From: a virus | Length of the DNA: 27,467 nt | Strand: one strand, 5' to 3' | Virus record (IMG/VR): IMGVR_UViG_3300037198_000069 | Coordinates: 1 to 27,467 of that record | Position numbers and translations under genes: made by a program | The notes under the pieces: generated by a model | Databases searched by the model: none | Told to the model about the DNA's origin: nothing | Seen by the model: the letters and a program-made list of their open reading frames with translations, nothing else | Part shown: piece by piece, positions 10,444 through 27,063 of the stretch | Layout of the letters: each line of letters begins with the position of its first letter | How positions within the stretch are numbered: the stretch's first letter is position 1

Positions 10444-12459
10444 ATGGACTTGTTTCTAGACAACGCACCTATTCAGATTGAAAAGACAGGCATGGAGGCA
10501 GGTCTAAGTGAGGATGCCAATGACTGGCCTCAGCAGATCTTAGATGAACTGTACAGGCAGGTGCCTTACGCCAGTGACTATGCACCAAAGGTTGTGCTTC
10601 GTTCTATAGATGCAGACCGGAGATATGGTCTTGGTCAGATAGAACTCCTCAACAAGATGGCGATCAATCCTCGGGATGATGATACCCCTGAGGTGCTGAA
10701 GGGTAGACAGAAGGCTCTGATTCCAGTCATCATCCAGGATGGTAAGCTCAAGCCCCTGGATGTATTGATGTACGACGGGAAGGTAGAACCTCTGACGGAT
10801 GAGCGTCTGAAGAAAGCCCTGTTCCGGCCCAACCTCTTCGAGGCAATCCGTGAACGCCCTGGTGATATCTCCTTGATCGAACAGCTATATCCACCACACA
10901 GGCAGTATGGTGGTGCACGTGGCCCCATCATGGCAGACATCGGTGCTGCGGGAATGGGCAAGGAGAGTAGTGCTCAGCCACTACTCCTAATCGACGCCAT
11001 TCTTCCGACTATCACAGAGGAGCAGGCTGCGGAAGTTATCGAGAAGATGGGTGCTGACAACTCAGTCACGTTCGCACAGGTGACAAAGAACCCAGTAGTT
11101 GGTGAGTTCCTGCATAAGCTAGGCCACGCCTCTCTACAGGAGGCTAGGGGCTCGGACTACCTGAATAAGGTAGCTGGAGCCATCAAACCCAATGTTATCC
11201 AGATTCAAAAGATTGAGGGCGGCTTCCGGGTCAAGACAGCAAATACTGAAGCTCTGATTCCAGACTCTCAGGATATCCCCCGTCCAGCAGCAGTAGGTGC
11301 ACTAGGTGGGGATATGGTATCTAGGGTGGAGGCTGATGGTACCACGACTATTACTACTCAACCGGTGGTCAAGGAGACACTGCTAGACATTCAGATTGAA
11401 GTGATCAATTCATTTGGTCTTTACAAGGTCAAGACACAGGACGAGAACCGAGAGTTGGTTGGGTGGGTGTTCCCGAAAGTCATGGACTTCAATGGAACTC
11501 TGTTACCGATGGCTCTGTTTACGAATGGTAGCGAGTCGGCAATGCAAGAAAACATTGCTGGTGTGTCTCTTGGTCGGCATACAGACCTGCTGGACACAGA
11601 CCCTGAAGGCTTTGGCTCCTTCTACTATGCCACTCCTGAAGGTGCTATCGCATTCATACCCATCAACATTCATGCGACTATCGAAACACCAGAGGGTACT
11701 GGTTTTAAGTGTGACACCGTCACTGGCGAGCAGTTGATCATAACTAAGCTGCCAGGACTCAAAGAGGTGTCCACTATTGAGGAAGGACACTACGGAATTC
11801 CTGATGACTGTGGCTTCTTGTCCTTCAATGAAGTAGTTGATCTAGCTTCGTCTCCGGATGAGTACACCAAAGTTGCTGAAGCTCGTGCTCTACCAACTGC
11901 TATCCGTGTGATCACGGATAGTGGAAAGAACTTCACCTTCCAGGGCGAGACCATAGACAAGTTGGCCGGGGTCATGGAGTCTGTGTGCTTGAGCAAGGAT
12001 GATGCCGTCTTCCTGGGTACTGTACTAGGGCAAGACCCAGTACAGTTTGAGAAAGACTTGGTAGGCATGCGGAAACAAGCAAGCCAAGAGCTGTGGTTCC
12101 CAGCTAGGCCGGTAACCCTATTCAAGGACTGCTTTCAGAAGGCTAAGTCAGCAGCTGCTGATTACCTGAAGAGTCTACCCAACCTCCGGGCCTACCTGCT
12201 CAAGGAAGCGGCCATGATCGAGGACCCGACAGCGGTAGACAAGATACTGTCAGTAGGGTTCATCAATTCCGAGAACGTCACTATCTTTGCCAGCTACGTA
12301 CCAGAGTTCGAGGCAGTTATACGGAAGTTAGCAGAGTTACTAGTGGCTACTCGTATGGGTCTCAACTCAGTAGATGAGGGTGCTCTACAGCGGTCCATGG
12401 TTCATTTGGATAAGGTAGTTGCTGGTTTGAAGACACTTGGTGCTCTACCGCAAGCATAG
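10444..12459 (+). CDS. Large unknown phage protein, 671 residues
   Basis: Start ATG 10444 has Shine-Dalgarno GAGGAG overlapping the end of the previous gene. The protein shows no motif I can assign. The first 250 residues are mixed alpha/beta with KALIPVIIQDGKLKPLDVL; the middle is beta-rich (TTTITTQPVV, GWVFPKVMDFNG, AIAFIPINIHATIETPEG), and the last 170 residues are helical (KSAAADYLKSLPNLRAYLL). It has K-x-A motifs (KVAGAI, VKTANT, TKVAEA, DKLAGV, RKLAEL) like the head-operon proteins. Position between baseplate and terminase genes suggests a virion protein. It does not look like a portal, although no other portal candidate is visible in the window. Confidence 0.85.
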   Translation: MDLFLDNAPIQIEKTGMEAGLSEDANDWPQQILDELYRQVPYASDYAPKVVLRSIDADRRYGLGQIELLNKMAINPRDDDTPEVLKGRQKALIPVIIQDGKLKPLDVLMYDGKVEPLTDERLKKALFRPNLFEAIRERPGDISLIEQLYPPHRQYGGARGPIMADIGAAGMGKESSAQPLLLIDAILPTITEEQAAEVIEKMGADNSVTFAQVTKNPVVGEFLHKLGHASLQEARGSDYLNKVAGAIKPNVIQIQKIEGGFRVKTANTEALIPDSQDIPRPAAVGALGGDMVSRVEADGTTTITTQPVVKETLLDIQIEVINSFGLYKVKTQDENRELVGWVFPKVMDFNGTLLPMALFTNGSESAMQENIAGVSLGRHTDLLDTDPEGFGSFYYATPEGAIAFIPINIHATIETPEGTGFKCDTVTGEQLIITKLPGLKEVSTIEEGHYGIPDDCGFLSFNEVVDLASSPDEYTKVAEARALPTAIRVITDSGKNFTFQGETIDKLAGVMESVCLSKDDAVFLGTVLGQDPVQFEKDLVGMRKQASQELWFPARPVTLFKDCFQKAKSAAADYLKSLPNLRAYLLKEAAMIEDPTAVDKILSVGFINSENVTIFASYVPEFEAVIRKLAELLVATRMGLNSVDEGALQRSMVHLDKVVAGLKTLGALPQA

Positions 12460-16081: not shown

Positions 16082-16597
16082 TCAGTTCATGATCTGATTG
16101 ATTCCCTTCTTAGCCTGTAGGGCTTTACCAGCAGCGCTAGATTGGATATCAATGTACGGCTGTAGTGTTTCCCTTTCTAATTCCAGTCGATCCAGTCTGG
16201 CTACTACTTTGTCGAAGACTTCTCTGGACACATACTGAGACTTCATGTCTTCCAGCATCATGTCAATCATGACTTCTTGCACTTCTATGGCTCTCTTTGA
16301 TCTAGAAAGTATAGCAAAGCGCATTATTTCTCTTGCATTCCAGAAGTGAATGTCCTCCCTTATGCGTTTGATCTTGAATAGTTCTTGGTGTTCCCGAAGA
16401 AACTCCTTAGGGACTCGCTGTGAGGTCCTAAGCCCTTCTTCGAATCTATCAGGATTTCTATAGGCTATTGTACGCAGTACTTTACTCGGCACCCTCAATT
16501 CTTCGGCTACTTTCTGAGTTGGGCATACTGCTTCATTGGTGCCGTCTTTGATCATTGGAAAGCAGAGTCCGTGTCCTGACATAACTATTAACTTCAT
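16082..16597 (-). CDS. ORF6N/BRO-like phage antirepressor or regulator
   Basis: ATG 16597 has Shine-Dalgarno AAGGGG about 7 bases upstream, and a family promoter lies at 16640-16668. The 171-residue protein looks like the N-terminal domain of the ORF6N/BRO antirepressor group: after a beta start, VAEELRVPSKVLRTIAYRNP (about 30-49) matches the part where such proteins carry a helix then RNPDRF, and HFWNAREIMRFAILSRSKRA (about 84-103) resembles the NESGLYRLILRSR segment. The C-terminal third is a coiled coil (VFDKVVARLDRLELERETLQ). The group binds DNA and controls phage lysogeny or late switches. I cannot see a separate C-terminal KilA-C domain, and the match is by eye. Confidence 0.6.
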   Translation of the reverse strand: MKLIVMSGHGLCFPMIKDGTNEAVCPTQKVAEELRVPSKVLRTIAYRNPDRFEEGLRTSQRVPKEFLREHQELFKIKRIREDIHFWNAREIMRFAILSRSKRAIEVQEVMIDMMLEDMKSQYVSREVFDKVVARLDRLELERETLQPYIDIQSSAAGKALQAKKGINQIMN

Positions 16598-16639
16598 GCG
16601 ATTCCCCTTTGTTGGTTAGACAACATGTCTGGCGAAGTC

Positions 16640-16668
16640 TTTATAACAGGATAGCCGGGTAATTTTCA
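16640..16668 (-). promoter_or_regulatory. Leftward promoter, TGAAAA-17-TATAAA
   Basis: TGAAAA (16668-16663), 17 bases, TATAAAGA (-10 at 16645-16640) on the minus strand. It would start the antirepressor message 43 bases upstream of its ATG. It departs from the strongest members by TATAAA and no TATTG extension. The terminator hairpin of the preceding gene (16687-16729) ends just upstream of its -35. Confidence 0.5.
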
Positions 16669-16686
16669 GGGCTGATTTGCGGCTAA

Positions 16687-16729
16687 AGAGAAGCCAAACT
16701 CGGATCGGAGAATGGCGAGTGGCTTCTCT
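16687..16729 (-). terminator. Terminator hairpin of gene 16758-16985
   Basis: AGAGAAGCCA and TGGCTTCTCT form a perfect 10-bp stem around a 23-base loop, followed on the minus strand by a short T-run (TTTAGCC). It stands between the stop of gene 16758-16985 and the promoter for 16082-16597, next to the motif GATTTGCGGCTAAAG that recurs at 17061. Confidence 0.6.
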
Positions 16730-16757
16730 ACAGGTCTGCTCTTTCAAGCACCTGTGG

Positions 16758-16985
16758 TCAGGTTTGAGCGGCTGTCCAAACAATAGCGCCATCCAAGTCG
16801 TGGATGATGCGTATCTGAAACGCTCCTGTCAGGTACTTCATGAACTTTCTTGCATCCTCTATTGCTCGATCCATATCGCAGTATGGGAATGGCCATACAT
16901 CCCACTTGTCCTTCATCCAGTAGGACTGTTGGGCACCTGTGGAATGCTGCAAATGCTGGGGCACATTTATCACTACACAAAACAT
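16758..16985 (-). CDS. Small phage protein with borrowed antisense segment
   Basis: 75 residues, ATG 16985, Shine-Dalgarno AAGGAG about 5-7 bases upstream, own promoter (17040-17068) and terminator: a complete expression unit. The sequence is MFCVVINVPQHLQHSTGAQQ and then a C-terminal half with AIEDARKFMKYLTG and DLDGAIVWTAAQ that looks like a folded alpha/beta domain. Residues about 8-23 are encoded by the reverse complement of a 49-bp stretch (16917-16965) identical to part of the head gene 19707-20015. The frame stays open through that stretch. No family is recognised. A longer overlapping frame (16744-17013) uses an upstream start without a good site. Confidence 0.65.
   Translation of the reverse strand: MFCVVINVPQHLQHSTGAQQSYWMKDKWDVWPFPYCDMDRAIEDARKFMKYLTGAFQIRIIHDLDGAIVWTAAQT
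16917..16965 (+). repeat. 49-bp exact direct repeat, copy 1
   Basis: Starts CCAGTAGGACTGTTGGGCAC and ends GGGGCACA; identical base for base to 19789-19837. Here it lies antisense within gene 16758-16985. Confidence 0.95.
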
Positions 16986-17039
16986 GACTATCTCCTTGTA
17001 GGGGTTCGACCAAAAGGTTAGATTCCCTTGATCAATATC

Positions 17040-17068
17040 CTTATACCCTACTGGCTCGTTGATTTGCA
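17040..17068 (-). promoter_or_regulatory. Leftward promoter, TGCAAA-17-TATAAGGATATTG
   Basis: TGCAAA (17068-17063), 17 bases, TATAAG (17045-17040) and the extension GATATTGATCA. It drives gene 16758-16985. The -35 begins 1 base after the hairpin 17070-17102. The leader contains ACCCCTACAAGGAGA before the ATG, nearly the same as the leader of gene 17357-17743. Confidence 0.65.
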
Positions 17069-17069
17069 G

Positions 17070-17102
17070 CTAAAGAAGAACCCGTGTGGTTTTCTTCTTT
17101 AG
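17070..17102 (-). terminator. Terminator hairpin before gene 16758-16985
   Basis: CTAAAGAAGA pairs with TCTTCTTTAG, and ACC pairs with GGT across a small bulge. On the minus strand the stem is followed by CTGC, without a long T-run. It ends the RNA reading from 17357-17743 and 17112-17213 and abuts the -35 of the next promoter. Confidence 0.5.
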
Positions 17103-17111
17103 GGCTTTGAC

Positions 17112-17213
17112 CTAAGCCCCATTACTCTTCAAGATCAGCGCTATGATCATGAAGAGGATTTCGCCCAATGCTTCGCGATGCTTGTAGATGTAACTTAGGA
17201 ATTTCTTGAACAT
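17112..17213 (-). CDS. Possible 33-residue membrane micro-protein
   Basis: From ATG 17213 to TAG 17112 the frame encodes MFKKFLSYIYKHREALGEIL and then FMIIALILKSNGA. A positively charged start is followed by a hydrophobic helix (EILFMIIALIL), the pattern of a small single-pass membrane peptide. The Shine-Dalgarno is weak (AAGAAG). There is no separate promoter; it would be read from the promoter at 17833. Its position between two hairpins supports a real gene only moderately. Confidence 0.4.
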   Translation of the reverse strand: MFKKFLSYIYKHREALGEILFMIIALILKSNGA

Positions 17214-17264
17214 GGGTAGCTTCTTTCTATTGGTTGGGAAGGTTGGTGGCTCACATAACCCCTA

Positions 17265-17318
17265 GCGACCCGCTCTGGTTTGACCCCCAGGTTTTCACCT
17301 GAGCCCAGAACGGGTCGC
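17265..17318 (-). terminator. Long imperfect hairpin after gene 17357-17743
   Basis: GCGACCCG and CGGGTCGC form the base; TCTGG / CCAGA extends it after one mismatch, and CAGGT-TTTC-ACCTG forms an inner hairpin. It starts 39 bases after the stop of 17357-17743 on the minus strand. No T-run follows, so it may be an RNA-stabilising or partial terminator structure. Confidence 0.5.
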
Positions 17319-17356
17319 AAGGAAGACTTTGTGAAGTGCGAAGCAGGGTGATTTGA

Positions 17357-17743
17357 CTAGTACCACGCAGCAGTAGCTGTCATAGCCACTTCAGCAGAGT
17401 CCCCTACTTCCAATCCAGTCAGCTTGCTTGCCGCTTTTGCAGCAGCCTTCCTGGCAGCAAGCTTTACCAGGCACCACTTGCCGATGTCGTAGGCATCTCC
17501 AGCGACTACCCATACGAGGACAACATGTGACGCGCCGTTGACGAGTTGGCGGAACTTGCTGCCGGCAGTGGGGGCAAGGCTGATGTTTTTGAAATCTTGG
17601 AACAACCCCTTGCTACTGTAGAAGCCATGGGCTGCGAGCTCCTTGTCGCTGGGGAAGATCGCAGTCTCAGCCTCCTTGTTGTGGTGGGCAGTCTCGGACT
17701 TGGTCTCGGTCTTGGTTTCGGTCTTTTCGGATGTGGTGGTCAT
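17357..17743 (-). CDS. Unknown small phage protein with hydrophobic segment
   Basis: The longer frame starts at 17770, but ATG 17743 has AAGGAG 8 bases upstream, giving 128 residues (MTTTSEKTETKTETKSE). The first 30 residues are Thr, Glu and Lys-rich and probably disordered; GASHVVLVWVVAGDAYD in the middle is hydrophobic and could be a membrane helix, followed by a basic Ala/Lys stretch (KLAARKAAAKAASKL). The gene has its own promoter (17833-17862) and a structured leader (17765-17811). I do not recognise the family. Small opposite-strand units in structural regions of phages are often accessory genes. Confidence 0.65.
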   Translation of the reverse strand: MTTTSEKTETKTETKSETAHHNKEAETAIFPSDKELAAHGFYSSKGLFQDFKNISLAPTAGSKFRQLVNGASHVVLVWVVAGDAYDIGKWCLVKLAARKAAAKAASKLTGLEVGDSAEVAMTATAAWY

Positions 17744-17764
17744 GATGCTCTCCTTGTAGGGGTC

Positions 17765-17811
17765 GCCCAATTACAGGTCGGCCTGGTTTGTAGAAGCCAA
17801 CCCAATTGGGC
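17765..17811 (-). promoter_or_regulatory. Structured 5' leader of gene 17357-17743
   Basis: GCCCAATT (17765-17772) pairs with AATTGGGC (17804-17811), with GGTT/AACC inside. The stem ends about 10 bases before the Shine-Dalgarno, so folding could influence ribosome access. No known riboswitch is recognised. Confidence 0.4.
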
Positions 17812-17832
17812 TAGGTCTTCTTGATCAATATA

Positions 17833-17862
17833 CTTATACCAGGCTTGAGGCCCGTTTTTGCA
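17833..17862 (-). promoter_or_regulatory. Leftward promoter, TGCAAA-18-TATAAGTATATTG
   Basis: TGCAAA (17862-17857), 18 bases, TATAAG (17838-17833), then TATATTGATCA. It drives gene 17357-17743 and probably 17112-17213. It shares ATTGATCAAG downstream of the -10 with the promoter at 17040. Confidence 0.65.
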
Positions 17863-17908
17863 CCAAATATCCAGCTTTTGACTATATTAGGGGGTCAATT
17901 TCTGTCTT

Positions 17909-18427
17909 TCAGGAAATGCTGGCTAAGAGGTCATTGTCCTTGATCATAACCATGCCTCTCTTGGTAAGTGTGCCAGGATACTTCCTACACATGATCACAG
18001 CAGCATCTCTAAGATTCTTCCGGCCCTTGTCTAGTAGGGCGTATAGCTGCTGGATGCGAGCACTGTCCGGTAACTTAGTGTCTTGTCGTACCTGGGTCAT
18101 CATCTTGGTGCAGAGTAAGAAGAATGGCTCCCAAGTGTGATCGAAAGACACTATTGGCTGTAGTCTGGTGAATTCGTACTCAGAAAGCTGGATGAAGTAC
18201 TCTGCCCATCGATCTATTACCTCCAGGGCCAACCCTCTCTGTACTACTGATACTAGTTGGACCGCATCCTGGTATAGAGTTAGCAATGCATCATCCTTGA
18301 CGGTGCGGAAGTGGGATAGGTCCAATCCATTCACCCGGAGTAGAAAGGTTACTTGTTTCTCTAGACCATCTATCCTGGCATCGAGTAACCTTGTGGTGTG
18401 CTCGGCCTCGTCTGCTTTGCTTCCCAT
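17909..18427 (-). CDS. Unknown helical protein
   Basis: The frame runs from GTG 18478; I choose ATG 18427 (172 residues, MGSKADEAEHTTRLLDARID) because GGAG sits 9-10 bases upstream, but ATG 18442 or the GTG is possible. An N-terminal coiled coil (TTRLLDARIDGLEKQVTFLL) precedes an all-helical body with conserved-looking aromatic residues (DRWAEYFIQLSEYEFTRLQ) and ends MIKDNDLLASIS. No family is recognised. The gene lies on the strand opposite to the head operon and its 5' end faces the rightward promoter at 18472, with which a longer start would overlap. Its own promoter is not clear; GTATCATAC around 18495-18503 reads as a -10 both ways. Confidence 0.65.
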   Translation of the reverse strand: MGSKADEAEHTTRLLDARIDGLEKQVTFLLRVNGLDLSHFRTVKDDALLTLYQDAVQLVSVVQRGLALEVIDRWAEYFIQLSEYEFTRLQPIVSFDHTWEPFFLLCTKMMTQVRQDTKLPDSARIQQLYALLDKGRKNLRDAAVIMCRKYPGTLTKRGMVMIKDNDLLASIS

Positions 18428-18464
18428 GTCTTTGTGCTCCATGCTATCACTAGTGAAGTACGTC

Positions 18465-18484
18465 AGTTGCGTTGACACGCAACT
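18465..18484. repeat. Perfect 8-bp hairpin over the rightward promoter -35
   Basis: AGTTGCGT-TGAC-ACGCAACT. The loop lies inside the -35 TTGACA (18472-18477). It could be an operator for a dimeric regulator, or fold in the leftward RNA. Confidence 0.4.
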
Positions 18485-18521: not shown

Positions 18522-19466
18522 ATGAACGATTCTCTACCACTTGGTCTGGCTCTACAACAAGCAGCGAAACCTGTAGACCCAGAACAGCTGGAGTTGATGG
18601 GTAAACGTGCTGCCGCTGCGTATAGCGAGCATGGTACTAGGCTTTCTGATGCAGTAGTGGAGGTGGTGAAGGAGGCTAAGCTGTCCCCGGAACAGGTAAA
18701 GCGGGTATGTGAGTTTGCCAATACCAATGCCTACCTTTCAGAGTTTGAAAAGGCTGGGGAAATGCGGAATGTCACCTTTGAAGGTGGTCCCGCTAACCCT
18801 AGCGTGGTTCTCAAAGACCTGAACGATGGAGGCAACCCCATGCTCAGCAAGGTTGGATCAAGTGACTACGTGTATCATGAATCAGCTGGGCATTACAAGA
18901 CGGCTGGAGTTACTGATGAGGCTCTTGCTGAGGCATTCGGTATCAAGGCCGGGGACAAGGAAAAGACTGCTTCAGTACACTCAGAGGTAGTTAGAGATCA
19001 TATGAGCCACTACAACCCAATAGATGAGCTCAATGATTTGAGACTATGTCTGGAGGGAACTAGAGAGACTATGATCAGTAAGCTCTCTACTTCCGGCGTG
19101 GTCTATGATGATGTGTCTTCAGACCTCTGCAAGACAGCAGCACAAGAGCTTGAGACCGGTACACCTATGGGTGACATAGCTAGGGTGTGGGCTAGTCACG
19201 CACCCAATGCGCCTATATTCAAAGAAGCTATGGCCCTAGTGGTTAAACACCTTCAGTCTCGAGGTCACTCAGAAGAAGAGCTTTCCAAGTCACTCAACAA
19301 GACAGCCAGTGCAGGAGTACTACCCAATCCGACACATCCTTTGGTAGAGCAGTTTGTAGCCTTCACCAAGGTAGCGCATGGTCATCACATTCTTCAAAGA
19401 AGCATCGAGGTGTTAGACGAGCAGCTGACTACAGTTCGCTCCAAGTTACACGAGATGGTCCAATGA
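18522..19466 (+). CDS. Unknown virion-assembly protein with KxA motifs
   Basis: First gene of the head operon; ATG 18522 has AGAGGAG about 6 bases upstream. The 314-residue protein is mostly helical and acidic. It contains five K-[TV]-A motifs (KTAG, KTAS, KTAA, KTAS, KVAH), and a two-histidine segment (VAHGHHIL) near the C-terminus. I do not recognise a family; too small to be a usual portal. It overlaps the next gene by four bases (ATGA), so they are coupled. The neighbourhood (protease, scaffold, capsid downstream) suggests a head-assembly or internal head protein. Confidence 0.85.
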   Translation: MNDSLPLGLALQQAAKPVDPEQLELMGKRAAAAYSEHGTRLSDAVVEVVKEAKLSPEQVKRVCEFANTNAYLSEFEKAGEMRNVTFEGGPANPSVVLKDLNDGGNPMLSKVGSSDYVYHESAGHYKTAGVTDEALAEAFGIKAGDKEKTASVHSEVVRDHMSHYNPIDELNDLRLCLEGTRETMISKLSTSGVVYDDVSSDLCKTAAQELETGTPMGDIARVWASHAPNAPIFKEAMALVVKHLQSRGHSEEELSKSLNKTASAGVLPNPTHPLVEQFVAFTKVAHGHHILQRSIEVLDEQLTTVRSKLHEMVQ

Positions 19467-19729
19467 CCAATTGGCAGCACATAGTGCCTTGGGTAGTGGT
19501 TTTGTGTCTAATATCTTCGTCTTTTGGATCAGTCTTAGGTTCCATAGTGGGTATGAAGGTATGCTCTAAGCATTGGCAATGTCCTTTATACACACGTAAG
19601 CATGTAGAGGACTGGACGAAGGACATGGTCAAGGAGCGGGTCAGGAACAAGGTAGTTAGAGAAGACCCAGAAAGTCCACCAGAGAGACTACCTGGAGAGG
19701 AATTCCATGAATCCGTTCCAGTACGCTAA
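19463..19729 (+). CDS. Small single-pass membrane protein
   Basis: 88 residues; ATG overlaps the previous stop as ATGA. The start is MTNWQHIVPWVVVLCLISSS, followed by FGSVLGSIVG: one clear membrane helix at about residues 8-31. Then CSKHWQC (two Cys, about 34-40) and a highly charged helical tail (WTKDMVKERVRNKVVRED) ending in a Pro/Glu-rich segment. An N-in membrane anchor with a charged tail resembles an inner-membrane spanin or an assembly anchor; no lysis gene is next to it, so I do not assign spanin. The stop lies inside the next gene. Confidence 0.75.
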   Translation: MTNWQHIVPWVVVLCLISSSFGSVLGSIVGMKVCSKHWQCPLYTRKHVEDWTKDMVKERVRNKVVREDPESPPERLPGEEFHESVPVR

Positions 19730-20015
19730 GGCATTGAACATTTTGCGGACAAAGACAGCAGGTCTTGTGGGTAATGCTGCTGGTACAGCCAGTAGGACTG
19801 TTGGGCACCTGTGGAATGCTGCAAATGCTGGGGCACAAGCTACAGCAGGTCATCTAGGCAGTGTTGGGGCACCCTCGGCCCTAACTGGTTTGATCACAGC
19901 TGCACCTACTCTGGCAGCAGGATATGGGGTGTACAAGGGTGGCAAAGGTGTGAAAAACAAGATGGACGAGTGGAAGTACCAAAGGCAGCTAAAAGCACAG
20001 GGGTATGATCAATGA
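19707..20015 (+). CDS. Small Ala/Gly-rich head-operon protein
   Basis: 102 residues; ATG 19707 with GGAGAGG about 6 bases upstream overlaps the end of the preceding gene in another frame. A short start (MNPFQYAKALNILRTKTAG) has a KTAG motif at residues 16-19, followed by an Ala/Gly-rich stretch with an amphipathic hydrophobic segment (ALTGLITAAPTLAAGYGVY) and a charged end (KNKMDEWKYQRQLK). The piece 19789-19837 (residues about 28-44) is the same 49 bases as at 16917-16965. It overlaps the next start by four bases. A small internal head or ejection protein is a reasonable guess only. Confidence 0.75.
   Translation: MNPFQYAKALNILRTKTAGLVGNAAGTASRTVGHLWNAANAGAQATAGHLGSVGAPSALTGLITAAPTLAAGYGVYKGGKGVKNKMDEWKYQRQLKAQGYDQ
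19789..19837 (+). repeat. 49-bp exact direct repeat, copy 2
   Basis: Identical to 16917-16965. Here it is in the sense strand of the small head-operon gene 19707-20015, in which the reading frame is Ala/Gly-rich. Confidence 0.95.
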
Positions 20016-20674
20016 ACCCAGTAGAAGAATTCCTTCAAGATAAAACAGCAGGTGTAGTGCCCGAATTAGCTGAAAAGGCGCCCGGTTTCCTGGGTTCTTT
20101 GTGGAAGGGCATGCAGTTTGCCCCACTTCTCAAGAATGAAACACCAGAAGCATTGGCACAGATAACTGGTTCACAGAGGTTTGCTCATGGTCTGGGTGGT
20201 AATCTAACCGGTGCAGCTGCAATAGGGGTTGCAGGTATGACTCTAGACTCGGGTGTTCGTGGTGCACGAAAGATGCTGAGTTTGGGTGTGGACAAGGTCA
20301 GGAAGCCTATGGAGTACCAGGCTATGATTGAAGCACATCCTGAGCTTCGGAAAGAAGACGCTGGTAGAGTGCAAGCCTATTACAACTCTCTCCGGCATAT
20401 GTCTCCCCACATGGCTGCTGACCCGGTTATTGCTGGTTCTTTTGTACGAAACCTTCTGGATAGAGGTCCAGAAGGTAGCCCTGCGGTACCAATGGAGACC
20501 GCCAACATGCTGGCTGGAATTCAGAAATCGGTATCTGGTGTACAGAAAGATCAAGGCATGTTGCCTTCTCAATCACCTGTAATGGGTATGATGGGCAAGT
20601 CATTAGAGTCTCCATACATGCCAAATCCCACATCATCACCACCAGGTAAGGCAACCAAGGGTAAGGAGAAGTAA
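20012..20674 (+). CDS. Unknown head-operon protein with N-terminal KTAG
   Basis: 220 residues; the ATG overlaps the preceding stop (ATGA). The N-terminus MNPVEEFLQDKTAGVVPE is close in form to that of the preceding gene: Met-Asn-Pro, a short helix and KTAG at 11-14. The middle has a Gly/Ala-rich, possibly membrane-interacting segment (GGNLTGAAAIGVAGMTLDSG), then helices (HPELRKEDAGRVQAYYNSL), and a Pro/Ser/Lys-rich disordered tail. Function is unknown; the layout would suit an internal or ejected virion protein. Followed by a GTG-started protease gene only 6 bases away. Confidence 0.8.
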   Translation: MNPVEEFLQDKTAGVVPELAEKAPGFLGSLWKGMQFAPLLKNETPEALAQITGSQRFAHGLGGNLTGAAAIGVAGMTLDSGVRGARKMLSLGVDKVRKPMEYQAMIEAHPELRKEDAGRVQAYYNSLRHMSPHMAADPVIAGSFVRNLLDRGPEGSPAVPMETANMLAGIQKSVSGVQKDQGMLPSQSPVMGMMGKSLESPYMPNPTSSPPGKATKGKEK

Positions 20675-20680
20675 CGGGCT

Positions 20681-22663
20681 GTGATCGTAAAGGTCTGCCA
20701 GTACCAAGCTCACCAGCCTAGTGGTGAGCAACTCATACAAGTCTTCCAGCCGGGAGATATGGAGAAGGCTGCGTCTTTCTTTGGTATGGGTAAAACTGCA
20801 GCTCCCCTTCTTCCTTCCGTCCGCGATTTACTTGGGAAATTGAAGCCAAGCTCCAATAAGATTTACCTATTGGTGAACGCGCTAGGTGCTGGAGAGTTCT
20901 GGGGATCAAATATAAATGGGGATTGGTTTGGCGTTGCGTCATTGATCCACAGAGGGCCTGTTTATGGCTACGAGACATTCCAAACTGCAGGAATTTACAC
21001 TCACCATCAGAATAAGAGCCCGGAGAAAAGCCTAGGTAACATACTGTTGTCTGCTTGGAATGACCAGATGAAACGGGTGGAGTTGGTGATTGAACTTGAT
21101 AGAGACAAGGCAAATAGATTCGGTGGAACAAGTGTCTGTGACAAGATAGATCAGGGTATGTACCAGGATGTCAGCATGGGAACGAAAGTTCCTTTTGATC
21201 GATGTTCCGCATGCACCGATATGCCTAGATTTGAAGCTGCAGTAGCTACCTTTGATCCCGCCAGGCACAAGAGTCCTGGTGATGCTGTTCTAGAGGTGCA
21301 TAAGAAGAACCCTATACGTGGTGTCTCTATTACTAGGAACGACTATTGTCAGCATCTCCGTACCCAACTCAATAAGATCTTACCTAACGGTGTGAAGATA
21401 TACGCCATCAACGACTTCCCGCGATTCTTCGATATCTCGTTCGTCTTCATAGGTGCAGACAAGACGGCGAAGGTGATGGCTAAATTAGCATCAGTAGGGA
21501 CGGGGGAGACAGTACCATCATGGAGGGTGGCGGAAGATGAAGGATATCTTCCAGATGTGGAGGAGCAGATGGAGAAGGCAGCCTCTGTAGAGAAGTCTGC
21601 GGACATACACATCAGGGATAAAAATACTGGTGAGATCGTATCTACATGGAGGTTTGCTGACTTTTCAGGTCCGGGTGGAGCATCCATGCTTCAAGAGGTG
21701 AGGAAGGATGGTTCCTTAGGGCCAAAGGTAGACAGGATAACAAGTGGTGGTATTTCCAGTCGGCCAATAACGGAAAAGGCTGTAGGTCATCTTATTTCCA
21801 GAGCCAAGGTTGCTCAAATCAAAGCCGGTGAGATAGAAAAGGACATCACTCCTTCTCAGTTCGGTGGCAAAGCTATACCAGCTAGACCAGACCTACCTAA
21901 TGATGTTCTGGATAGGCTTGGTTCTTCTGATATGGGTGAAGCTCTTTCTACTCCCGCGATGATGGGGATGTTACTCAAGCCTCGGGAGTTTCAAAGAATC
22001 ACCATAATACACATGGGCAACAAGCCATTAGCTGATGAGCTAGACAGGCATAATATGGTGTTTGGGCCCACGGATGATGCAGAGAGCCCGGGGGAGATGG
22101 GTTCAGATCGAATGAGCGAGGTACTCAAGAAGATACTGTTACCCTTCATGGAGGACAAGAGTTTCTTGGAACCAGTAGCCAAGAGACGGATGGTCAAAAT
22201 CATCATAATGGGTGGTTCAAGGGGGCCGGAAGAGGGTGAAAAAATAGCTTCATCAGACCGCTTCCTACTAAAGATAAGTGCGGCTTATAATGGGTACTTA
22301 CAACAGCTAGCACACTGCCTACACGACATTCCCGATGTCATCAATTCCGACACAGAACTATGGAACAAGGTCCACGGCCAAGGGCTGGGGGATGGGTTCT
22401 ATAAGACGTCTGCTGAGGTTGCTCCAGTATTGGGAGCAATGGGGGCTGCTGAGATACTATCCGCTCTTGCAGAGCACAGCAGGAAAGAGTCAGATCGAAA
22501 GGGAGATTCTGTGGGCTTTTTGACTGACTTGATTGCAGAGCATCCTCATATACTGGCAGCTTTGGCCGGATTGGGTACGCTTCATGCAGAAGGATCTTCC
22601 CTTCCGGCCGATTTGATTGCTAAACTGACCAGTATGGGCAAGAAAGTAGTGACACCTCGGTGA
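20681..22663 (+). CDS. Prohead protease with long C-terminal extension
   Basis: 660 residues from GTG 20681 (GGAG about 13 bases upstream). The first 260 residues fit the HK97/T4 prohead serine protease fold: HHQNKSPEKSLGNIL has the candidate catalytic His (H108 or H109), then an ELVIELD strand, and VSMGTKV with Ser165; the 56-residue His-Ser spacing is close to that of HK97. A CSAC pair and ISFVFIGADKTAK follow. The rest (about 280-660) is an unassigned C-terminal region with a Lys-rich ending (TSMGKKVVTPR), much longer than typical proteases, so a second domain is fused. Such enzymes trim scaffold and capsid proteins. K-x-A motifs occur inside it too (KTAA, KLAS). Confidence 0.75.
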   Translation: MIVKVCQYQAHQPSGEQLIQVFQPGDMEKAASFFGMGKTAAPLLPSVRDLLGKLKPSSNKIYLLVNALGAGEFWGSNINGDWFGVASLIHRGPVYGYETFQTAGIYTHHQNKSPEKSLGNILLSAWNDQMKRVELVIELDRDKANRFGGTSVCDKIDQGMYQDVSMGTKVPFDRCSACTDMPRFEAAVATFDPARHKSPGDAVLEVHKKNPIRGVSITRNDYCQHLRTQLNKILPNGVKIYAINDFPRFFDISFVFIGADKTAKVMAKLASVGTGETVPSWRVAEDEGYLPDVEEQMEKAASVEKSADIHIRDKNTGEIVSTWRFADFSGPGGASMLQEVRKDGSLGPKVDRITSGGISSRPITEKAVGHLISRAKVAQIKAGEIEKDITPSQFGGKAIPARPDLPNDVLDRLGSSDMGEALSTPAMMGMLLKPREFQRITIIHMGNKPLADELDRHNMVFGPTDDAESPGEMGSDRMSEVLKKILLPFMEDKSFLEPVAKRRMVKIIIMGGSRGPEEGEKIASSDRFLLKISAAYNGYLQQLAHCLHDIPDVINSDTELWNKVHGQGLGDGFYKTSAEVAPVLGAMGAAEILSALAEHSRKESDRKGDSVGFLTDLIAEHPHILAALAGLGTLHAEGSSLPADLIAKLTSMGKKVVTPR

Positions 22664-22664
22664 T

Positions 22665-22714
22665 GTTAGGGGCTTCGTACCCCGAAGAAACAGAAACCGA
22701 TCACGAAACCTAAC
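22665..22714 (+). promoter_or_regulatory. Structured intergenic element before scaffold-like gene
   Basis: GTTAGG (22665-22670) and CCTAAC (22709-22714) pair over a long distance, with GGGG / CCCC in between. It occupies the 80-base gap after the protease gene and before the Shine-Dalgarno CAGGAG of 22744. It may set the relative amount of scaffold versus protease message. Confidence 0.35.
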
Positions 22715-22743
22715 GATCAACCGAGACACACAGGAGTTACCAA

Positions 22744-23541
22744 ATGAGCATGGACGCACAACTAGCAGAGATCTATGGCACTGGCCAAGAGGCTAATGCT
22801 GAAGATGATCAGGTGAAGTTGGCTGCTGCTGAGCTTCTTGTTAAGCTGGCAGGGGACAACAATGTGGACCTTAGCCAGTTCAGCGATCAAGAAGTAGCTG
22901 AGATGGTTCAAGAACTGCAGAAGGAAGCAGAACTTCCTCCACAGTTCCAGAAGAAGGAAGAGAGCGGAGAAGAGAAGAAGGAGACTCCAGAATCGAAAGA
23001 GTCTGGTGAGTCCTCTTCTGAGTCCCCAGAGGACAAGAAGGCAGAAGCTGCAGAGAAGGTAGCAGAGGCGGACTTCCTGGGCCGCGTGATGGCTCACTCG
23101 TTTGCACAAGAGTGCAAGGAAATCGAAAAGGAAGCCGGTCTCAAGGACAAGGCAGTTGGCGCTGCAAAGAATGTGGCTAAGAAGGGTAAGGCGTCATTCC
23201 TTAATCTGATCCATGGCAAGAAGGATGGTGCTATTGTAGCATTGAAGAACCATCCCAAGAGTGCGTTGGGTGGAGCAGCAGCTCTAGGGGCTGCTGGCGG
23301 AGCTGCTGCTATGCATAAGAAGAAGGAAGGTTCAGCAGATCAAGCAGCCCTTGACGCTCTTGCTGAACAGCGTGCTCTAGCTATGGCTAAGGAAGCCGGC
23401 TGGGTGGACCCAGAGGGTAACCTTGTTGCTCCTCCCGCCAAAGAAGAGACCAAGACAGCGTCCCCACTGGACCTGGCTGTAGAGCGTAGAGCTCTCGAGA
23501 TGCTGGAAGCTAACGGCTACCCAGTGACTTGGAACGAATAA
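22744..23541 (+). CDS. Scaffold-like or internal head protein with C-terminal repeat
   Basis: 265 residues; ATG with CAGGAG about 8 bases upstream. The N-terminal 60 residues are helical with KLAAAELLVKLAG, then a Glu/Lys/Ser-rich disordered stretch (EESGEEKKETPESK). A basic/Gly-Ala-rich stretch (GGAAALGAAGGAAA) follows. The C-terminal 70 residues contain two copies of a helical unit: ALDALAEQRALAMAKEAGW and PLDLAVERRALEMLEANGY, each ending in an aromatic residue. Disorder, high charge and position after the protease fit a scaffold or head-internal protein that is trimmed during maturation. No direct family match is claimed. Confidence 0.75.
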   Translation: MSMDAQLAEIYGTGQEANAEDDQVKLAAAELLVKLAGDNNVDLSQFSDQEVAEMVQELQKEAELPPQFQKKEESGEEKKETPESKESGESSSESPEDKKAEAAEKVAEADFLGRVMAHSFAQECKEIEKEAGLKDKAVGAAKNVAKKGKASFLNLIHGKKDGAIVALKNHPKSALGGAAALGAAGGAAAMHKKKEGSADQAALDALAEQRALAMAKEAGWVDPEGNLVAPPAKEETKTASPLDLAVERRALEMLEANGYPVTWNE

Positions 23542-23570
23542 CAACAACAACCCCAATGACCGGTATTTGC

Positions 23571-23828
23571 ATGTCGGCGTTTTTCGAAGAGTTGACCAAG
23601 GTGGCCGGAGAAGTCCGTGCCCCTGATAGTCCTTGGGTTTCCAAGACTGTCGGGGCTCCACGTGCCAAACTGACCAACACTCAATTCCCGAAAGCGCCGA
23701 CTGCACCCGGTCCATTGAATCTGAAGCTGGTGCAACCGGCGGCAAAGTTTGGGCCACGCCTTAACTATTCCCAACCAAATTTTGGGACTCCGGCAGGAGC
23801 CGATATAGGCATTGGGAGTATGGCATGA
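23571..23828 (+). CDS. Small Pro-rich virion protein
   Basis: The frame is open from 23529 with candidate starts TTG 23529, ATG 23556 and ATG 23571; none has a strong Shine-Dalgarno. I choose 23571 (85 residues, MSAFFEELTKVAGEVRAPDS) because its N-terminus follows the pattern of its neighbours: a short helix and a KVAG motif at 10-13. The remainder is Pro/Ala/Lys-rich with few charged clusters (APTAPGPLNLKLVQPAAKF) and ends in a Gly-rich tail, likely extended and structural. Possibly a small capsid-associated protein. Confidence 0.6.
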   Translation: MSAFFEELTKVAGEVRAPDSPWVSKTVGAPRAKLTNTQFPKAPTAPGPLNLKLVQPAAKFGPRLNYSQPNFGTPAGADIGIGSMA

Positions 23829-23868
23829 CAACAACCGCCACCTTTAGTACGATCCTTAGGAGGACCTG

Positions 23869-25005
23869 ATGAAGTTTTCGCTACATAGCATGGTTGCGGC
23901 AACGGTGTCTGAAGCCGAAAGGCGTGAGAAGCTTGCAGCTTCAGATGACGAAGCCGTACACAACGGAGAGAACACAGATATTTCGGATGCAAAGAGCAAG
24001 AGCCCCGGTGCATCCAATACACCACCCAATAACCCGGCTACTGTTCCAGAGAGGAATGACTCAGAACAGGCGGGTACCAAGACCTCTTCTGCTCTGGCCC
24101 TTAAACTGGCCAGTGCGATTGAGTATCTCAATGAAAACTTCTTGAAGGTCGCGGTGGGAGAGATTACTCCACCTACTCCTTCAGGCTCACCAGAAGCAAA
24201 GATAGGGCCGGGAGAGGGTGAAGGTGCCACACCTACTAACTTGGACACACCTACACCAGGTGTACAGTCTGAGGCGGTAGGACAAGCAACGGAGAAGAAT
24301 CAACCTCCAATGAAGCCAGGTACAGACCCTGCTTCACCTGGCCAGACCAACACTGGTACGGCTTTGGAGACTACGATCCATGACCCTCCGGGAGGAAATG
24401 AATCCTGGAAGGATAAGGACATTCTGAAGCAGAGTGCTGCTTTGCTTCAGAAGAGGGCAGCAGCTGCGAAGGTTACAGAGACTAAGCCTGCTGGAGCAAC
24501 AAAGACTGCTGCTCCAGTAAGTCAAGTAGATCGAGTTCTTGGTATCATGAAGAAACTGGCAGATGTTCCTCCTGAAGCTACTGCTTCTGAGGAAGGTGTG
24601 CCTTCTCTCCCTGGGCCGGCTGCAGCTCAGAGAAGAATGATCGATAGCAACGACGCAGCAAGAGACTATACTAAGCGTGAGGCGAAGGCAGAGCCAAAAG
24701 AACAGATGGGTGAGGTTCTTGATGAACCAGCTCAGAAGAAGTCGACGGACACTGTCCTTCAGAACAACCTTTCCCATACATCTGAAGCTGGGGTGAAAAT
24801 CTCAGCAGCTCAGGCTGTAGCGGCGAGGGCCCTACTCAGCAAGATTGCTGAAGAGGGTGGTGCTTCAGACGCATCGTCTGAAGCAAAGGCGAAGGCCGAG
24901 AAAGTTCGGTCTATCGTCGAGTCCAAGCAGAAAGAAAAAGAGAAAGATAGTCAGGGTGTAGGTGGGGGAACGGCATCACCGTTCAACACAGGATCGAGTT
25001 TCTAG
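23869..25005 (+). CDS. Acidic disordered scaffold-like protein
   Basis: 378 residues; ATG with a strong AGGAGG about 6 bases upstream. The protein is low-complexity: an N-terminal helix (MKFSLHSMVAATVSEAERRE) with KLAAS, then a Pro/Thr/Ser/Glu-rich region, and a C-terminal helical part with VKISAAQAVAARALLSKIAE before a charged tail (AKAEKVRSIVESKQKEKEK). It carries at least six K-x-A motifs. The segment KISAAQA recurs at the start of the next protein. High disorder and position just before the capsid genes fit a scaffolding or core protein digested by the protease, by analogy with T4 gp22. Confidence 0.75.
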   Translation: MKFSLHSMVAATVSEAERREKLAASDDEAVHNGENTDISDAKSKSPGASNTPPNNPATVPERNDSEQAGTKTSSALALKLASAIEYLNENFLKVAVGEITPPTPSGSPEAKIGPGEGEGATPTNLDTPTPGVQSEAVGQATEKNQPPMKPGTDPASPGQTNTGTALETTIHDPPGGNESWKDKDILKQSAALLQKRAAAAKVTETKPAGATKTAAPVSQVDRVLGIMKKLADVPPEATASEEGVPSLPGPAAAQRRMIDSNDAARDYTKREAKAEPKEQMGEVLDEPAQKKSTDTVLQNNLSHTSEAGVKISAAQAVAARALLSKIAEEGGASDASSEAKAKAEKVRSIVESKQKEKEKDSQGVGGGTASPFNTGSSF

Positions 25006-25016
25006 GAGGAACACAA

Positions 25017-25406
25017 ATGGACAACAAGACTAAGATCAGTGCAGCCCAGGCCGCTCAGGTCTATGCCGAAGTGCCTGGTGTCCTTCGGAAGCTTGCTTCT
25101 GAGAAGGACCAACTCCAGACAAAATTGGCGGAGGCAGAGAAGGCGCTAGAGGGGTACAAGTTGGCTGATAGGATCTCAAAGATTGCTCAGACAATGGAGG
25201 ACAAGAAGATCAATCTTGGCCTTTCGTTGGGTGAGCGTGTCTCTAAGATCAAGGAAGCCCATGCAAGCGGTCGGTCGCTCGATGCAATTGAAGAGGCGAT
25301 TGACATGACTGCACCAAATGGAGAGATGGCCAAAGTGGCGGGTGATTTGGATGGAAACGGGGAGAACGCACTCGAGTCATATCTGCTTGGGGGTCTAGCG
25401 CAGTAG
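25017..25406 (+). CDS. Coiled-coil scaffold-like protein
   Basis: 129 residues; ATG with GGAGGAAC upstream, 11 bases after the preceding stop. The start MDNKTKISAAQAAQVYAEV shares KISAAQA with the preceding protein. A coiled coil follows (RKLASEKDQLQTKLAEAEKA), then helices (KKINLGLSLGERVSKIKEAH) and a Gly/Glu-rich end (GENALESYLLGGLAQ). Five K-[LIV]-A motifs occur. It resembles a short scaffold or assembly chaperone and may act together with 23869-25005. No named family is recognised. Confidence 0.75.
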   Translation: MDNKTKISAAQAAQVYAEVPGVLRKLASEKDQLQTKLAEAEKALEGYKLADRISKIAQTMEDKKINLGLSLGERVSKIKEAHASGRSLDAIEEAIDMTAPNGEMAKVAGDLDGNGENALESYLLGGLAQ

Positions 25407-25941: not shown

Positions 25942-27063
25942 ATGAGCGTTCCTTCCAGAATTCTAAATGATCTCTTCACCCAGAAGCTGGATAGCAGCGA
26001 AGGCAAAGAGAAGATTGCAGAGTACGCTGGTACGTACATCCGTGACCGTTTGCGCGAAGTCTCCTTCGCACGGAAGATCATTCCGCCGCAACAGGTGACT
26101 AGGGCAGACTGCCAGAGGTCCGTACATCACGACACACTGTCGAAGATCGTAGACGTCGAGCCACAGAGCAAGGCGATGTCTTTGACCTTCCGCGGTCAAC
26201 CCACTGCACGTTTCATTCGTGGACCTCGTGCAGAGGTAGGGTTCTTCACCATCTCCTCGGAAAAGTTCGAGAAGACGGAGCAGGAACTTCTAGCATACGA
26301 GATGCCCATCACCAAGGTCATCGAAGACAACTCGGTGAAGGACATCCAGGAGATCGAAGACCGTGAGTTCTTGATCCATATCGAAGCTGCAGTACAGGCT
26401 CTTCAGCAAGAAGCCAATGGCGGCACTGTAAAGACCCTGAACTACGCTACGGTACAGGCAGGTACTACGGTTGAGTTCTCCGTACGTAAGGGCGAACTTG
26501 CTCGCACTGCAACTGTTCCTACATCAGCAGCTTTGCCTGTTCAGAAGACTGACTTCGTGAGCATGTTCAAGATGCTGTCTGGGAACCGCCTGCGTTGTGA
26601 GATGGTTCTGCTATCCGAAGTTGACTGGGATGACATCCTTCAGTGGACCGCGGAAGACGTAGGTAACAAGATTGTGTCTGAGACCACGGTCGAAGGATAC
26701 AAGTACAACCTGCTCTTGGGCAGGGCATATTGCCGCACGATCAAGACTGACATTCTTCGTCCAGGTAATATCTACTCGTTCACGAGACCAGACTTCTTCG
26801 GGAAGTTCTTCATCCTGAACAACACCAAGTTCTACATCGACAAGATTGCCAATCTGATCACATGGCAGTCCTGGGAAGACATTGCAGTATCTGTCATCAA
26901 CATTGCAGCCGTTCGCAAGTTGGAGCTATACTCCGCTGATGCAACGAGCAACGATGCTGACAGCTTGCTGTCGAACTTGATCCCGAAGGCAGAGGAAGAC
27001 TTGGGAGAATCCAATAATCGGGTTGATGAAGGTCTCGTCTTCCCGCAGCTGGAAATCTTCTAA
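25942..27063 (+). CDS. Major capsid protein
   Basis: 373 residues; ATG with AGAGGTAATCAAC upstream. Layout fits an HK97-fold capsid: a variable N-terminal arm (residues 1-60), an E-loop/spine region in which FTISSEKFEKTEQELLAYE is followed by ITKVIEDNSVKDIQEIEDRE (long spine helix start), a P-domain, and a central A-domain with SGNRLRCEMVLLSEVDWDD, FTRPDFFGKFFILNNTKF and a C-terminal Glu-rich tail. Strong expression is suggested by its position last in the operon, next to a strong terminator. There are few K-x-A motifs (KIAE, KIAN). The name is based on fold-like pattern and neighbours, not on a database hit. Confidence 0.75.
   Translation: MSVPSRILNDLFTQKLDSSEGKEKIAEYAGTYIRDRLREVSFARKIIPPQQVTRADCQRSVHHDTLSKIVDVEPQSKAMSLTFRGQPTARFIRGPRAEVGFFTISSEKFEKTEQELLAYEMPITKVIEDNSVKDIQEIEDREFLIHIEAAVQALQQEANGGTVKTLNYATVQAGTTVEFSVRKGELARTATVPTSAALPVQKTDFVSMFKMLSGNRLRCEMVLLSEVDWDDILQWTAEDVGNKIVSETTVEGYKYNLLLGRAYCRTIKTDILRPGNIYSFTRPDFFGKFFILNNTKFYIDKIANLITWQSWEDIAVSVINIAAVRKLELYSADATSNDADSLLSNLIPKAEEDLGESNNRVDEGLVFPQLEIF

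Follow-up and report, generated by a model that had tools for sequence, protein, structure and literature searches.

A K-x-A motif in the head proteins of an uncultured tailed phage as the probable recognition site of its own prohead protease

Results

The window studied here comes from an uncultured tailed phage and is 27,467 bases long (IMG/VR record IMGVR_UViG_3300037198_000069, positions 1 to 27,467). It contains a head operon and encodes a major capsid protein, a large terminase and a fused RNA polymerase. The motif K-x-A (lysine, any residue, alanine) recurs in the proteins of the head operon. Probably, at about 0.87 by our estimate, it is the sequence recognised by the prohead protease that the phage itself encodes at 20681-22663, and this enzyme would cut after the alanine. 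The motif is real, head-specific and lineage-wide, it stands at particular places in the proteins and it is avoided at others. The cleavage reading draws on its enrichment in head genes only, near-universal sites on both flanks of the protease's catalytic domain and avoidance of the motif inside it, the N-terminal site of the capsid protein, the small residues after Ala and the i,i+2 spacing of known prohead-protease motifs. An initial annotation of the window had proposed cleavage sites for this protease with the cut after Ala, and all of the comparative tests point the same way.

Such a specificity would be a new variant, differing from that of the Glu-cutting enzymes of T4, phiKZ, SPN3US and P1. 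A literature search for a K-X-A prohead motif found none, and no specificity was found assigned in the literature to the protease of Salmonella phage Arash, Vibrio phage D69 or Bacillus phage G, which are used for comparison below. Few model phages have provided the prohead proteases known so far, and the enzymes compared here cleave behind Glu. As K-x-A is readable from sequence, it would provide a testable maturation map for uncultured phages (343 protease loci in IMG/VR), predict mature N-termini, flag internal and possibly injected proteins, and offer a candidate cargo tag in phage G.

Frequency of the motif in the window and in a close relative

The initial annotation had noticed by eye about 30 copies of K-[TVLI]-A between positions 18522 and 25406. 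The count is 28, against a mean of 5.0 (sd 2.2, maximum 15 among 5000) in shuffles that preserve composition and were done protein by protein. All the sites it had named are present in the genes concerned, i.e., RTKTAG (19707), QDKTAG (20012), LTKVAG (23571), REKLAA (23869), VKLAAA (22744) and GMGKTAA (20681). Outside the head genes of the window the motif occurs at chance, with 3 copies in the RNA polymerase (4.2 expected), none in the large terminase (0.56 expected) and chance numbers in the remaining genes. With any middle residue, the head genes contain 42 copies against 21.9 expected and the rest of the window 28 against 29.0. Because this wider motif is also in excess, and E, Q, S and A occur in the middle position, [TVLI] is a preference and not a requirement. 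The pattern also extends beyond the 18522-25406 interval, to the protein encoded at 10444-12459 (five copies) and to the major capsid protein (residue 24).

The motif frequency in non-head genes, suggested earlier as a control, was near expectation in the 133-kb contig of a close relative, where the excess was significant in eight of 206 genes, seven of them in the head block, and the other genes held 53 copies against 45.1 expected. In the single genome the z value of the K-x-A pair was 4.3, while the best pairs of some control gene sets reached about 4 to 5. Replication over many loci was therefore needed, and it is the replication that makes the case.

Replication across protease loci

The protease alignment, which included the homologues of Arash, D69 and phage G, led to 343 relatives in IMG/VR; 80 of them were retained, and 58 loci served as representatives. 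An unbiased scan of about 1600 residue-pair patterns, with expectations derived from each protein's own composition, was performed on the genes near the protease, i.e., within about 3 kb of its gene. In the 58 pooled loci K-x-A was the most enriched pair (2204 copies against 1014 expected, z 37), followed by KxxS (z 18), which marks the Ser behind the Ala of K-x-A. Likewise, K-x-A ranked first in 40 of the 58 loci taken singly, while in 48 sets of genes farther off no pair led more than four times and K-x-A was not among the recurrent leaders. The more distant genes showed a smaller excess (649 against 492 expected), partly because some of them are further carriers, e.g., the family of the 10444 protein.

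K-x-A also recurs, and is enriched, around the homologous proteases of Arash, D69 and phage G. It was first among the pairs in Arash gp220-225 (30 against 13.8 expected) and in D69 0268-0274 (45 against 18.0), and it was not the leading pair in the tail or other tested genes of these two phages. Unlike in the substrates of Glu-specific prohead proteases, no xxE pair stood near the top of the pooled scan. As a positive control, the same scan of the T4 core proteins placed IxE first and LxE third, and the method therefore recovers the known gp21 specificity, (L/I)xE. In the SPN3US control, AxE reached 20 copies against 10.3 expected in the propeptides (rank 12) and 8 against 12.6 in the mature parts. 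A scan of residue pairs around a protease gene, having recovered the T4 motif, is thus supplied as a general method.

The prohead protease and the sites in its own sequence

The protease is encoded within the head operon, ahead of the gene for the capsid protein; like the sites and candidate substrates located below, its gene is on the plus strand. Its 660-aa product (20681..22663) was identified as a prohead (head maturation) protease by a match to PHROG 18299 (E 1.9e-6 for the window protein and 2.6e-19 for the best relative). It consists of an N-terminal leader (residues 1-40), a catalytic domain (about 42-258), a disordered linker (about 256-400) and a C-terminal domain (about 405-650). 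The presumed catalytic residues, H109 in the motif HHxNKD (21005..21007) and S165 in VSMG (21173..21175), are invariant in A1 and A2 and are conserved in the order His...Ser, as in the T4 gp21 and herpesvirus protease type. S165 was aligned to a VSS segment around residue 140 of T4 gp21 in an hhalign comparison that was non-significant. Conserved acidic residues include D81, E134 and D260, none of which is assignable as the third catalytic residue.

In the AlphaFold2 model of the full protein, a confident domain (about 45-254) lies between low-confidence stretches; residues 42-262 modelled alone gave a predicted local distance difference test score (pLDDT) of 92.5 and a predicted template modelling score of 0.84. 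T4 gp21 was the PDB entry with the highest Foldseek probability (0.77-0.82), but the E value was 0.07-0.2 and the template modelling score 0.3-0.4, and the human cytomegalovirus protease 1nkm gave a very weak fold match only. The profile comparison of the protease with T4 gp21 was not significant, the sequence search of solved structures returned nothing relevant, and a Pfam search with the protease and the core-like proteins produced no relevant match.

Two conserved K-x-A copies bracket the catalytic domain and are candidate self-cleavage sites: K38-T-A40 (20792..20800) before it, kept in nearly all of the 58 representatives, including Arash, D69 and phage G, and K268-L-A270 (21482..21490) just after it. 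Across the representatives K-x-A is 4.65-fold enriched in protease residues 1-45 (67 against 14.4 expected), depleted to 0.57-fold in residues 46-255 (30 against 52.8, p 5e-4), and again enriched in the linker (268 against 96, 2.8-fold) and in the C-terminal part (1.8-fold). In the window protein seven of the eight copies fall in blocks with a mean pLDDT of 50 or less. Sites at the edges together with avoidance inside the fold are as self-cleavage predicts.

The catalytic domain also contains a CxxC...CxH cluster (C175, C178, C223 and H225; window 21203-21355), probably a zinc site, of which two to four ligands are lost together in nine relatives (L102, L115, L121, L125, L129, L141, L104, L116 and L114). 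Moreover, inserts were found within the protease gene in L008 (2165-5128), L137 (6735-9467, at the VSMG catalytic motif), L130 and L100. The terminase was noted for inserts in L005 and L006, with the L006 insert inside the large terminase, and Pfam intein and LAGLIDADG domains were found in L008, L137 and L006.

The extended site

The residues flanking 1763 sites from seven head families showed preferences for E/D at P7, M/F/L/I at P5 (2.2-3.1-fold) and E/V/T at P4, followed by K at P3, T/I/L/V at P2 (G, P, D and W avoided) and A at P1. Downstream, S/A/G/H/E are preferred at P1', where W, Y, I and K are avoided, and A at P2'. The preferences fade beyond about P7 and P2', a reach that looks like that of a protease cleft. 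The predicted cleft would have an acidic S3 pocket and a shallow S1 pocket. The extended site would thus be about [ED]-x-[MFLI]-[EVT]-K-[TLIV, not G/P/D/W]-A|[S/A/G]-A. The known motifs (L/I)xE, SxE and AxE are all of the form P3-x-P1 and are cut after the second residue (PMC5694885); because prohead-protease motifs share this form, we infer that the bond cut is the one after Ala.

Candidate substrates

Most copies of K-x-A are internal sites in core-like proteins. The first of these is a head protein (18522..19466) homologous to the virion protein Arash gp220 (E 3e-38; D69 counterpart, E 1e-28), in which five K[TVLI]A stand against 0.5 expected and whose family holds 495 K-x-A against 132; no relatives of it were found in bacterial genomes. 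The others are the protein at 22744..23541, with repeated K-x-A of which K25, K34 and K105 are the most conserved (family 379 against 173), the long low-complexity protein at 23869..25005, with repeats at K21, K79, K229 and K325 (family 399 against 195; K79 and A81 conserved at 0.97 and 1.00), and the small protein at 25017..25406, with five K[TVLI]A in 129 aa (family 120 against 34). Outside the head operon, a 671-aa protein of unknown function (10444..12459) that had no Pfam or PHROG match carries five K[TVLI]A against 1.1 expected, and its family 207 K-x-A against 68. The K and A of the motif are conserved above other K and A in the families of the 18522, 22744, 10444 and 19707 proteins.

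The major capsid protein (25942..27063; PHROG 2522 major head protein, E 1.7e-6) has a single N-terminal site, K24-I-A26. Of 30 representatives, 26 have their first K-x-A at residue 24-27, Arash and D69 among them. Over the whole family the motif shows no enrichment (59 against 50 expected).

Three smaller proteins have the motif behind an N-terminal leader or near the N-terminus. The protein at 20012..20674, the homologue of Arash gp221, starts with a candidate capsid-targeting leader, NPVEEFL, a spacer and K-x-A-G. In its family the helix NP[VIL][ED]xFL is followed by a spacer of 0-13 residues and then by K-x-A. Of the 30 relatives that have this helix, 29 carry K-x-A within 22 aa, against a mean of 4.6 and a maximum of 11 under the null, and the body of the protein is depleted of the motif (24 against 57.4 expected, p 5e-7). 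As the spacer length varies, this points to selection on the motif and not to mere conservation of the sequence. The small protein at 19707..20015 carries K16-T-A18, whose K and A are conserved at 0.95 and 0.86 in the family against a family mean of 0.38. The third protein (23571..23828) has the leader MSAFFEELTKVAG; the longest open reading frame (23529-23828) begins with TTG at 23529, and relatives such as L011 and L010 make the ATG at 23571 the likelier start. Leaders of the form FF[DE]EL-x-K-x-A recur in relatives.

The earlier suggestion that the copies are targeting peptides fits a minority only, namely the 20012 family, 19707 and 23571, with the phage G leader described below by analogy, and does not fit most copies. 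Similarly, a position after a short N-terminal helix holds for particular families only. N-terminal enrichment as a general rule was rejected, since outside phage G it was weak, with ratios of 1.1-3.5 that mostly had p > 0.05.

Proposed maturation and comparison with known systems

In the proposed order of events, the protease would free itself in the closed prohead by cleavage on either side of its catalytic domain, at A40, A270 and sites in the linker. It would remove about 26 residues from the major capsid protein, trim short N-terminal leaders off a few internal proteins and cut several core-like proteins at many sites, and the peptides of the core proteins could then leave before DNA packaging.

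This arrangement resembles the T4 gp21 system and its substrates (PMC9958956, PMC7411985) in the protease gene within the head operon, the many sites in the core proteins (gp22, gp67 and gp68), the capsid site near the N-terminus of gp23, the short leaders on internal proteins and Alt, and the P3-x-P1 form of the motif. It has been proposed that gp21 cleaves itself N-terminally and that this unblocks its active site (PMC9958956). However, T4 cuts after Glu at (L/I)xE, whereas the motif of the window phage is K-x-A, and the window protease differs from gp21 in its CxxC...CxH cluster and large C-terminal domain. SPN3US gp245 and phiKZ gp175, with the motifs AxE and SxE (PMC5694885, PMC10052503), are similar in coming from large phages with many head substrates, in C-terminal self-cleavage (gp245 trims its own C-terminus; PMC10052503) and in the P3-x-P1 motif. 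They differ in cutting after Glu, in their long propeptides and in having no K-x-A.

The herpesvirus maturational protease (assemblin) has Ala before the cut and Ser or another small residue after it, and its release site lies right behind the catalytic domain. We know of no Lys at P3 in the herpesvirus protease consensus. The window enzyme is similar to assemblin in the Ala before and the small residue after the predicted cut, and in the site just after the catalytic domain. A Ser/His mechanism is shared by the herpesvirus and phage proteases (PMC7411985).

A further comparison is with the homologous proteases Arash gp222, D69 0270 and phage G gp19, which have H109, S165 and both flanking K-x-A sites. 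Where they can be aligned, these proteases have only 32-37% identity to the window enzyme, and phage G differs further in the addition of a common RL-x(1,2)-K-x-[AS] leader.

N-terminal leaders in phage G and virion proteins of Arash

In phage G, 25 proteins contain the pattern RL-x(1,2)-K-x-[AS] within their first 20 residues, and there are only five further copies in the proteome. With the leader removed, these proteins fall into 21 families, against an expected 0.51; as the pattern was picked after seeing examples, the p value is not literal, but the contrast is still large. A shared leader on unrelated proteins that ends at the motif, as in T4-type targeting, is thus found in phage G, while the leaders of the window are single cases conserved across relatives. 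The phage G leader agrees with the extended site in having Leu at P5, Lys at P3 and Ala/Ser at P1, and is probably, judging from these patterns, a capsid-targeting tag. It is typically MKRLxKK[AS], without a hydrophobic stretch behind it (noted for Bacillus phage G, L054-L078). In the window, a candidate targeting leader is well supported for the 20012 protein and plausible for 19707 and 23571.

Several carriers of the phage G leader belong to PHROG 13493; they have a YHGTS-like stretch and match RNA 2'-phosphotransferase weakly. A GNAT acetyltransferase and a ferritin-like protein also bear the leader. The ADP-ribosyltransferase Alt of T4 is injected with a leader of this kind (PMC7411985); an ADP-ribosyltransferase role for the phage G leader proteins is only a guess. 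We would give even odds that the K-x-A code represents a Lys/Ala-specific branch of prohead proteases together with leaders that mark packed and injected proteins. If so, at least 21 phage G families of injected proteins would be named from sequence alone, among them the HGTS-containing group, the ferritin-like protein and the acetyltransferase.

The Arash virion list includes 11 of the 13 Arash proteins that have an N-terminal [LMIFV]xKxA, compared with 116 of 252 proteins overall (p 0.004). The p value was 0.04 without the head operon and 0.14 without two further doubtful cases, so that as an independent test this enrichment is suggestive only. Abundant virion proteins outside the head operon (L045-L053; Arash gp95, gp97, gp100 and gp206) also have K-x-A within the first 30 residues. 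The Arash beta subunit, its most abundant virion protein (PMC10585845), starts with MPKSASEL and its D69 counterpart with MPKKASDL.

Alternative explanations and points against cleavage

The best surviving alternative, which we nevertheless regard as improbable, is that K-x-A is an uncut short linear motif for docking or packaging, which binds the protease, portal or shell in assembly. It agrees with a short motif repeated in disordered segments of many head proteins, and the phage G and NPVEEFL leaders do look like targeting signals. However, copies of K-x-A flank the catalytic domain, whereas the motif is avoided within that domain and within the body of the 20012 protein, and avoidance in folded parts is predicted by cutting and not by binding. 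The single N-terminal copy that is fixed in the capsid protein and the small residue favoured directly after Ala, where W, Y, I and K are avoided, also argue against docking.

Cutting by a host protease or by another phage protease, instead of the 20681 product, is very unlikely. Sequence alone cannot assign a specificity to an enzyme, but the motif tracks the clade of this protease in Salmonella, Vibrio and Bacillus phages and in uncultured relatives, lies at the edges of its own domain and is clustered around its gene. It is likewise very improbable that the excess has no function of its own and merely accompanies Lys/Ala-rich coiled coils or basic core proteins that condense DNA: several carriers are rich in K, E and A and the 25017 protein is coiled-coil-like, but an artefact of composition or coiled coils was rejected by the per-protein expectations, under which K-x-A, and not AxK, KxxA or ExK, ranked first in 40 of 58 loci, and by the better conservation of the motif K and A in the four families named above, while the 20012 family has one site only, behind a variable spacer.

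Several observations count against cleavage by the 20681 protease as the explanation of K-x-A. The N-terminal site of the protease is missing in L097, L130, L137, L142 and L099, and K268-x-A270, kept in most relatives, is lost in L109, L110, L115, L120, L121, L124, L125 and L129. Avoidance of K-x-A in the capsid body is weak (31 against 40.6 expected, p 0.07), and the capsid protein of phage G has no N-terminal copy. The loci are related, so the pooled z values overstate their independence. No clear K-x-A signal was present around the more distant proteases of mycobacteriophage I3, Phrappuccino, the Moorella phage, Yoloswag and Illi-2, and the specificity therefore belongs to one clade of the enzyme. 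Moreover, the Arash virion table lists 100% coverage for gp221 and gp223 (PMC10585845), by which the residues predicted to be cut off would be kept; this coverage is not literal, because about 90-100% is given for large proteins with two peptides (PMC10585845).

Cleavage after Ala by the prohead protease makes specific predictions for Arash. If cut, the capsid protein gp226 would give the tryptic peptide GAAMSAFVR (uncut, EAGAAMSAFVR), gp221 would give GVTELSEDQTR (uncut, AAGVTELSEDQTR) and the protease gp222 would give AAAEIDDFVK (uncut, QAAAAEIDDFVK).

Neighbouring genes

Between the 18522 and 19707 genes lies an 88-aa open reading frame (19463-19729) without K-x-A and with a hydrophobic N-terminal segment; its product may be a small membrane protein read in an alternative frame. 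Between the terminase and the head operon the minus strand carries three small genes (16082-18478); minus-strand genes occupy the same place in the relatives, with varying content (e.g., L004). The RNA polymerase is a single protein of 2568 aa (1199-8905) in which beta- and beta'-type domains are fused. Its Rpb1 domains 2 and 3 are separated by a LAGLIDADG domain, probably an intein that follows the NADFDGD motif.

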